From a virus: a stretch of DNA of 40,418 nucleotides. Positions within the stretch are counted from its first letter, which is position 1. The number at the start of each line of letters is the position of its first letter. The DNA is taken from positions 1-40,418 of IMG/VR virus record IMGVR_UViG_3300025449_000003; one strand, 5' to 3'. The notes under the pieces are model-generated. The model ran no database searches and had not been told where the DNA came from. It saw only the letters and a list, made by a program, of their open reading frames with translations. The position numbers and the translations under genes are program-made. Positions 33,522 through 34,610 of the stretch are shown here, in pieces.

Positions 33522-33856
33522 AAGTTATAGAAAGGTTGTTTATTAGATTTGAAGAGAAAGGGTTTGATACTAAAAATTTAAATAAAGAAGAGTGGAGAGT
33601 AGAGTTATCTACATTTAAAGATAGATTAGATTTTATAAAGTTTGGATTAAATAATTTAAAAGGTGAATTACCTGATGCTAAGACCTTTGCAAAGATGTGT
33701 TCACCTATTTATAAAGAATCAAAAGAACAAACCTTTCATGATGGTAAACAATGGGCTAGAGATATATTAAAAAAGGTAGAGCAAGGTATCCAAGTAAGAC
33801 CTATTTGTTTAACATTTGCTAAAGAAGCATTGAGGATAAAGGAGAATCATGAATGA
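33512..33856 (+). CDS. Hypothetical early protein, 114 residues
   Basis: The start is taken as ATG 33512; an upstream TTG (33497) would add five residues. The product is helical and basic. It contains FIKFGLNNLKGELPDAKTFA (about 38-57) and HDGKQWARDILKKVEQG. The length and place in an early block might suggest a small replication-initiation or loader helper, but no diagnostic motif is present, so I do not assign one. It overlaps the upstream gene by ten bases and the methyltransferase start by eight. Confidence 0.65.
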   Translation: MEMKVIERLFIRFEEKGFDTKNLNKEEWRVELSTFKDRLDFIKFGLNNLKGELPDAKTFAKMCSPIYKESKEQTFHDGKQWARDILKKVEQGIQVRPICLTFAKEALRIKENHE

Positions 33857-34610
33857 GTTGGCTCTTTTCAGCGGTATTGGTGGAGGAATTCTTGGGGGAA
33901 AACTGCTTGGATGGAGAACAGTCTGTGCAGTCGAATGGGAAGCCTATCCAGCAAGCGTATTGTGCGCCCGACAAAATGACGGACTTCTCCCGCCTTTCCC
34001 GATTTGGGATGACTGTAGCACCTTTAAAGGAGAGCCTTGGAGAGGAATTGTTGACGTTATATCTGGAGGATTTCCGTGCCAAGATTTGTCCGTTGCAAAC
34101 CAAAAAGGAGATGGACTTGATGGAGAAAGATCAGGAATGTGGAGAGAAATGGGGAGGATTATTGGCGAGGTTAGACCCAGATACGTTTTTGTGGAAAACT
34201 CCCCAATGCTCATTAATAATGGACTCGATAGAGTGCTTGGAGACCTTTCCAAATTGGGGTTTGATGCAAGATGGGGTCTTATGGGAGCAGACTCCGTTGG
34301 TGCCCCCCATAGACGGGAAAGATTTTGGTTGGTGGCCAACTCCCGTAGCAACAGATTACATGACAGGCAAGTTGAACGGGATAGAGTATCGCAACAAGAG
34401 ATTTATAAGAACCAGTTTGACAAGTGGGACAGAGTTTGGAGCAAAAGTAGCAGATGCGTTTCGATTGATAACTGGAGAAGCATTGCCTCCGAATTTCTCA
34501 GAATGGATGATGGGACTTCCTCAAGGGTGGACAGAATTAAAGCGTGTGGAAACGCACAAGTTCCTGAATGTGCAGCAACCGCTTGGAGAATCTTAAGTGG
34601 ATCAATTTGA
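33849..34610 (+). CDS. dcm: DNA C5-cytosine methyltransferase
   Basis: This 253-residue enzyme has the ordered C5-methyltransferase motifs: FSGIGG (7-12, SAM binding), GFPCQD with catalytic Cys77 (74-79), ENS (116-118, motif VI), RRERFW (155-160, motif VIII) and GNAQVPECAA (about 233-242, motif X). The stretch between VIII and X, where the target-recognition domain lies, is only about 70 residues, so the enzyme is compact. It transfers a methyl group from SAM to cytosine, probably to shield phage DNA from restriction or to mark its own DNA. AAGGAG precedes ATG 33849. The gene is unusual in carrying a second long frame, and it has higher GC than its flanks. Confidence 0.93.
   Translation: MNELALFSGIGGGILGGKLLGWRTVCAVEWEAYPASVLCARQNDGLLPPFPIWDDCSTFKGEPWRGIVDVISGGFPCQDLSVANQKGDGLDGERSGMWREMGRIIGEVRPRYVFVENSPMLINNGLDRVLGDLSKLGFDARWGLMGADSVGAPHRRERFWLVANSRSNRLHDRQVERDRVSQQEIYKNQFDKWDRVWSKSSRCVSIDNWRSIASEFLRMDDGTSSRVDRIKACGNAQVPECAATAWRILSGSI
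33853..34596 (+). CDS. Nested overlapping gene in the +1 frame of the methyltransferase
   Basis: An open frame of 247 codons without a stop lies entirely inside the methyltransferase gene, one frame over. ATG 33853 is four bases after the methyltransferase ATG. A second candidate start is ATG 33976, which gives MTDFSRLSRFGMTVAP. The product contains WKTPQCSL, FPNWGLMQDGVLWE, WWPTPVATDY and EWMMGLPQGWTEL. I recognise this combination from phage proteins found with or inside cytosine methyltransferase genes, often as a separate gene. Its stop TAA is followed immediately by the GTG start of the next gene, as expected if this frame is translated. Function unknown. Confidence 0.72.
   Translation: MSWLFSAVLVEEFLGENCLDGEQSVQSNGKPIQQAYCAPDKMTDFSRLSRFGMTVAPLKESLGEELLTLYLEDFRAKICPLQTKKEMDLMEKDQECGEKWGGLLARLDPDTFLWKTPQCSLIMDSIECLETFPNWGLMQDGVLWEQTPLVPPIDGKDFGWWPTPVATDYMTGKLNGIEYRNKRFIRTSLTSGTEFGAKVADAFRLITGEALPPNFSEWMMGLPQGWTELKRVETHKFLNVQQPLGES

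Follow-up and report, generated by a model that had tools for sequence, protein, structure and literature searches.

How does a reading frame of 247 codons come to lie open within a phage cytosine methyltransferase gene, and does it encode a protein of its own? The question arises at positions 33,849 to 34,610 of a 40,418-nt stretch of viral DNA (IMG/VR record IMGVR_UViG_3300025449_000003), the whole of which is hereafter called the window. A preliminary description had proposed that both frames are coding, with both products conserved. We refer to the methyltransferase frame (frame 0) as alpha and to the nested frame (+1) as beta.

Layout of the locus

Re-examination of the sequence bore out all the coordinates given previously, and each motif that had been assigned to the methyltransferase frame (I, IV, VI, VIII and X) was located in alpha. 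The features are listed below by window position.

33838..33844, + strand: Shine-Dalgarno-like AAAGGAG, common to both frames (consensus match only)
33849..34610, + strand: alpha, C5-cytosine DNA methyltransferase catalytic chain, 253 aa, motifs I-VIII and X
33853..34596, + strand: beta, nested +1-frame ORF, 247 aa, candidate recognition subunit (target-recognition region, TRD, and putative motif IX)
33853..33856, + strand: ATGA, in which the beta start overlaps the TGA of the upstream ORF 33497-33856
33867..33887, + strand: alpha motif I, FSGIGGG (AdoMet site)
34074..34082, + strand: alpha motif IV, PCQ (catalytic cysteine), invariant in the family
34194..34202, + strand: alpha motif VI (ENS)
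34311..34328, + strand: alpha motif VIII (RRERFW)
34344..34484, + strand: alpha residues 166-212, a linker evolving neutrally; in the +1 frame this DNA encodes the beta core, which is strongly constrained
34501..34530, + strand: beta EWMMGLPQGW, putative motif IX element, just ahead of motif X
34548..34565, + strand: alpha motif X (GNAQVP)

The alpha and beta ATGs are separated by 4 nt within ATGAATGAG. Both are downstream of a single AAAGGAG, separated by 4 nt from the alpha ATG and by 8 nt from that of beta, consistent with the one shared ribosome site described earlier, as judged by consensus match. The beta stop codon (TAA, 34594-34596) directly adjoins the GTG at 34597, as had also been noticed. 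The upstream ORF whose TGA shares bases with the beta ATG (33497-33856) has no recognised function. The neighbours of the locus are a RusA resolvase, an HNH protein and proteins without recognised function, and two RusA-like Holliday junction resolvase matches are present in the same phage record (window positions 34944-35381 and 38587-39210).

Purifying selection on both frames

GC-rich genes commonly have long +1 frames, and every nested homologue found sits on an alpha gene, as would be expected if the nested frame were a non-coding by-product of alpha codon usage. However, the openness of the frame far exceeds that of synonymous shuffles. Shuffled versions of the window alpha contained a mean of 4.8 stops in the +1 frame versus 0 observed. 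In a set of 88 loci, composed of loci picked by alpha alone together with the window and ten phage loci, the +1 frame was stop-free in 74 versus 0.11 expected under synonymous codon shuffling. In the other 11 of the 85 close-family members, the +1 stop comes only close to where alpha ends, that is, beta is open to near that point in 85 alpha-picked relatives, and the three distant outgroups (L008-L010) have earlier +1 stops. For a second, remote alpha subfamily (YYNEID type), the +1 frame was open in 69/69 loci versus 2.6 expected, and the +2 frame in 0/69.

Codon choice at the start of alpha also argues against a by-product. Asn2 of alpha is AAT in 159/159 loci, a codon that makes up 41% of the Asn codons in these genes, and the beta ATG is thereby fixed. 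Glu3 is encoded by GAG in 157/160 loci (32% expected). In 19/160 loci, the alpha start position is occupied by TTA or CTT instead of a start codon, and the beta ATG is nonetheless retained.

Substitutions between homologous loci were classed by their effect in both frames (OLGenie-like count). Close pairs gave a dN/dS of 0.29 for beta (0.25-0.35), 0.14 for alpha and 1.57 for the frame +2 control; intervals are approximate because the compared pairs share sequences. In the region of alpha residues 1-165, dN/dS was 0.05-0.06 for alpha and 0.37-0.46 for beta. The relation is reversed in the region of residues 166-212, with values of 0.85-1.11 for alpha and 0.08-0.10 for beta, and the +2 control was at least 0.96 in both regions. 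Over residues 213-253, the values were 0.09-0.29 for alpha, 0.17-0.53 for beta and 0.64-1.60 for the control. Subfamily 2 displays the same swap of constraint past motif VIII (alpha 0.50-1.06, beta 0.08-0.18). The estimator is not biased low, since a simulation of selection on alpha only gave a beta dN/dS of 1.4-1.75, against 0.08-0.46 in the real loci.

The locus is thus dual-coding: purifying selection acts on both frames and not on the methyltransferase frame alone, and the two sides swap after motif VIII. Openness, the invariant codon 2 and dN/dS with its simulation control all support the proposal that both products are conserved. These regional values also reveal how the DNA is shared out, alpha holding the part up to motif VIII and motif X, and beta mostly the part between. 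A spurious ORF was rejected on the basis of the shuffles, selection counts and simulation, and we regard a non-coding nested frame as extremely unlikely, the more so as beta is the more constrained of the two in the region of residues 166-212.

Motif content of the two chains and its rearrangements

Alpha matches PF00145 (E 7.8e-28) and PHROG 363 (E 5.7e-60), and its AlphaFold model contains an HhaI-like catalytic domain that matches M.HhaI and M.HaeIII. With motifs I, IV (PCQ), VI, VIII and X and a Rossmann catalytic fold, it has the attributes of a C5 methyltransferase. The one-chain enzymes M.HhaI and M.HaeIII share the catalytic fold and motifs I-VIII with alpha but carry the TRD and motif IX in the same chain. 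Neither motif IX nor a folded TRD was found in the alpha chain: residues 183-220 and 222-234 are disordered in the AlphaFold model (pLDDT < 50), and residues 166-212 evolve neutrally.

Beta matches PHROGs 1008, 26627, 31772 and 10223, mostly labelled “DNA methyltransferase”, which means that parts of the beta frame are already annotated elsewhere. A tblastn search with beta retrieved 108 phage records from many hosts. Its segments, first presented as conserved-looking, are therefore already in public data. Sequence searches of Pfam, NCBIfam and PDB with beta returned nothing convincing. The structure model of beta is of low quality (pLDDT 60) except near the EWMMGLPQGW motif, where it is good, and a fold search against PDB gave no match. 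Full-length beta and ordinary C5 methyltransferases, compared as profiles with hhalign, gave no significant match, and a simple motif IX matrix fails to pick out EWMMGLPQGW. When the profile of the beta motif was compared with the canonical C5 alignment, the best fit was at motif IX (8.2 versus 0.4 at the next place); no column shuffle out of 5000 gave an in-register pair of beta motif and motif IX profiles as good, and the reverse scan of the same window-profile comparison ranks the beta motif second. The distance from the G of the motif IX element to the GN of alpha motif X is fixed at 35 nt in 139/139 loci scored.

Natural rearrangements provide stronger evidence for the same assignment, and the actinophage series below, like the window-profile comparison, was more informative than the whole-profile and matrix tests. 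In three loci (L077:2501-3604; L149:2501-3667; L152:2483-3997), motif X has shifted from alpha to the end of beta: the alpha ORF stops short of motif X (in L149 and L152 it stops directly behind motif VIII), and the beta ORF ends with motif X, preceded by an LMGWP/LMNWP element. No further rearranged locus was found with L149 as query. Alpha of L077 retains a relic of its pre-motif X segment. A comparable division is present in the actinophages Idergollasper, ByChance, Camerico, Abidatro, Flux and Lilbooboo, in which methyltransferase genes are split into pairs (e.g. Flux gp80/gp79, Idergollasper gp6/gp5 and the Camerico pair), the second gene partly overlapping the first in +1 and bearing motif IX then motif X. 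The beta-family HMM matches all six (E 3.6e-23 to 1.3e-4, Z=1000), Idergollasper gp5 being the best (E 3.6e-23). In Mycobacterium phage Magnar, gp43 is a single chain with motifs I-VIII, then EFYEWLMGLPRGW, then LLGNGVVPQQ, and the beta HMM matches its motif IX (E 0.0036, Z=1000). By their motifs and profile matches, the monomer, split and nested arrangements appear to be forms of one enzyme. Motif position, the rearrangements and the monomer homologue place motif IX on the second chain and motif X on the first, the identity of motif IX being judged from a short element.

Some sequences of these groups deserve separate mention. In L070, L073, L082, L099 and L140, 1-base indels within the variable region cause the frames to rotate, so that the N-terminal part of one chain runs on into the C-terminal part of the other, through sequencing error, decay or live variation. 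In Gordonia phage Camerico (L402:1270-1881), the beta ORF is longer than the annotated gp39 and overlaps gp38, so a start-site correction of gp39 seems due. For the methyltransferase of Gordonia phage Bibwit (L409:81-1790), the annotation gives a joined gene whose interval also contains a gene for an HNH endonuclease.

Beta could instead be a separate protein, such as a regulator or an anti-restriction factor (e.g. a nuclease inhibitor), that merely shares DNA with the methyltransferase. Its N-terminal half is conserved without having known relatives (MSWLFSQALVEEY..), as such a protein might be. We find this very improbable: beta bears what alpha lacks, motif X shifts onto it in L077, L149, L152 and the actinophage pairs, and its motif belongs to a one-chain methyltransferase in Magnar. 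No stand-alone homologue of full-length beta was found in the loci checked, every scored match lying on an alpha gene at offset +1; these loci were picked by beta, and the alpha-picked sets agree. This is what a two-subunit enzyme predicts. Of the two roles suggested earlier for the second product, that of methyltransferase partner is thus supported by motif IX and the predicted recognition part, and that of a separate anti-restriction factor is without support. Any anti-restriction role would stem from methylation by the joint enzyme.

The order of motifs along the DNA, with the middle part in +1, is that of a one-chain enzyme, and two programmed frameshifts could in principle fuse I-VIII, TRD-IX and X into one chain with no separate beta. 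We judge this highly unlikely. It requires two efficient shifts, and it does not account for the retention of the beta ATG in the 19 loci in which alpha has no start codon at that place. Moreover, annotation of the actinophage relatives shows two genes, each with its own start, and the N-terminal half of beta, which would be superfluous in such a fusion, is under selection (0.37-0.46).

Comparison with known enzymes, distribution and significance

Two-polypeptide C5 enzymes are known as such. Lee et al. are said to have reported in 1995 that the two M.EcoHK31I ORFs, which are in different frames, overlap each other and that neither chain is dispensable. M.AquI and M.EcoHK31I are the described cases (PMC3404938; PMC3439449), and the two-chain kind of C5 methyltransferase is therefore not itself new. 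In M.EcoHK31I, which recognizes YGGCCR, the large chain contains motifs I-VIII and X and the small chain motif IX (PMC3404938; PMC3439449). The window locus is likened to it by this published description, with IX on the second chain and X on the first. It differs in that beta spans nearly all of alpha, starting 4 nt after the alpha start, and in the placement of the TRD, which has been predicted in the large subunit of M.EcoHK31I (PMC3404938) and which our evidence places in beta. Following that published assignment, beta might supply motif IX alone, with recognition performed by the VIII-X segment of alpha. This is very unlikely for the present family, given that the segment is neutral and disordered in the model of alpha, that the corresponding core of beta is constrained, and that the alphas of L149 and L152, which end right after motif VIII, lack it.

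The chain of M.AquI is cut between motifs VIII and IX, beta comprising the remainder, IX and X (PMC3404938), a division that is also that of L149, L152 and the actinophage pairs. Unlike M.AquI, the window keeps motif X on alpha and its genes are nested. The actinophage “DNA methylase” pairs (Flux gp80/gp79, Idergollasper gp6/gp5) resemble the window in having a second gene in +1, an LPTP..EWMMGW motif IX and a beta HMM match, but their overlap is short or partial and motif X is on the second chain. An out-of-frame ORF within a phage methylase gene has also been described in mycobacteriophages, where ShiLan has an HNH endonuclease (PMC11855218). That ORF is a homing insertion, whereas beta in the window would be the enzyme's own second part, present at every family locus tested. 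Near-complete nesting with adjacent starts, its occurrence across phage and bacterial genomes, a constraint swap and a beta chain serving as the recognition part were not found in the open-access literature searched, which likewise contained no report of nesting of this kind in phages. The nesting, its spread, the sharing-out of the DNA between the two chains and the monomer, split and nested series appear to be new.

Taken together, it is highly probable that the locus encodes one C5-cytosine methyltransferase made as two chains, of the M.EcoHK31I kind but fully nested, with beta as the recognition subunit bearing the TRD and motif IX. That beta carries the target-recognition region is very probable from its position, constraint and the rearrangements. 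Alpha would provide AdoMet binding and catalysis (motifs I-VIII) together with motif X, and beta, which starts at a separate ATG 4 nt further on, would contribute motif IX and the variable region for target recognition. Read along the DNA, the motifs would then be arranged as in a one-chain enzyme: I-VIII lie in frame 0, the TRD and IX in +1, and X again in frame 0, which encodes only a linker between VIII and X. Ribosomes initiating at 33849 would produce alpha and those initiating at 33853 beta; the overlap of the beta ATG with the upstream stop (ATGA) suggests that translational coupling may help. We infer that both chains are translated and assemble into an active enzyme whose DNA target would be recognized by beta. 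None of the neighbours of the locus in this phage was recognised as a restriction-modification nuclease, so protection from host restriction is a likely use, the phage probably marking its own DNA.

The nested arrangement is widespread. Scans found at least 351 beta-related and at least 575 alpha-related viral contigs, and a further scan found 527 related viral contigs, these three sets partly overlapping. The statement that long nested overlaps are rare is therefore wrong for this type of locus. The whole beta frame is open and the 4-nt start offset is kept in Manatee Spring, Pseudomonas, Klebsiella, Salmonella, Microcystis, Vibrio and Acinetobacter phages. Candidates from bacterial and archaeal genomes contained 158 related stretches, beta matches were present in 12/369 genomes of one class, and matches also occur in E. 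coli chromosomes and in plasmids.

Few of the records examined name alpha and beta together, usually giving one or the other. Public records L002:1501-2229, L006:1501-2199 and L405:1501-2238 annotate one frame of the two; in Pseudomonas phage phPA-G and Vibrio phage 1.236.O, beta is listed as “hypothetical” and the methyltransferase is missed, and in E. coli PT62 alpha alone is listed.

We consider it somewhat more probable than the contrary that frame changes, one following motif VIII and another separating IX from X, divided a one-chain methyltransferase, and that translation of both frames has preserved this division over great evolutionary distances. The locus would then represent a widespread and old class of same-strand nested gene pairs, in phages as well as in bacteria, whose two overlapping products complement each other within one enzyme. 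Besides chance overprinting, the monomer, split and nested series offers a concrete way in which a long overlap of two genes can arise, and the constraint swap within a single piece of DNA is a case on which theories of overlapping genes can be clearly tested. For many “DNA cytosine methyltransferases” of phages and prophages, the annotation may cover only half of the enzyme and, if the two-chain model is true, cloning alpha alone to find the target would fail. Where one frame is essential, the other would be no more than its passive carrier, and the recognition part could evolve at little cost to the catalytic chain.
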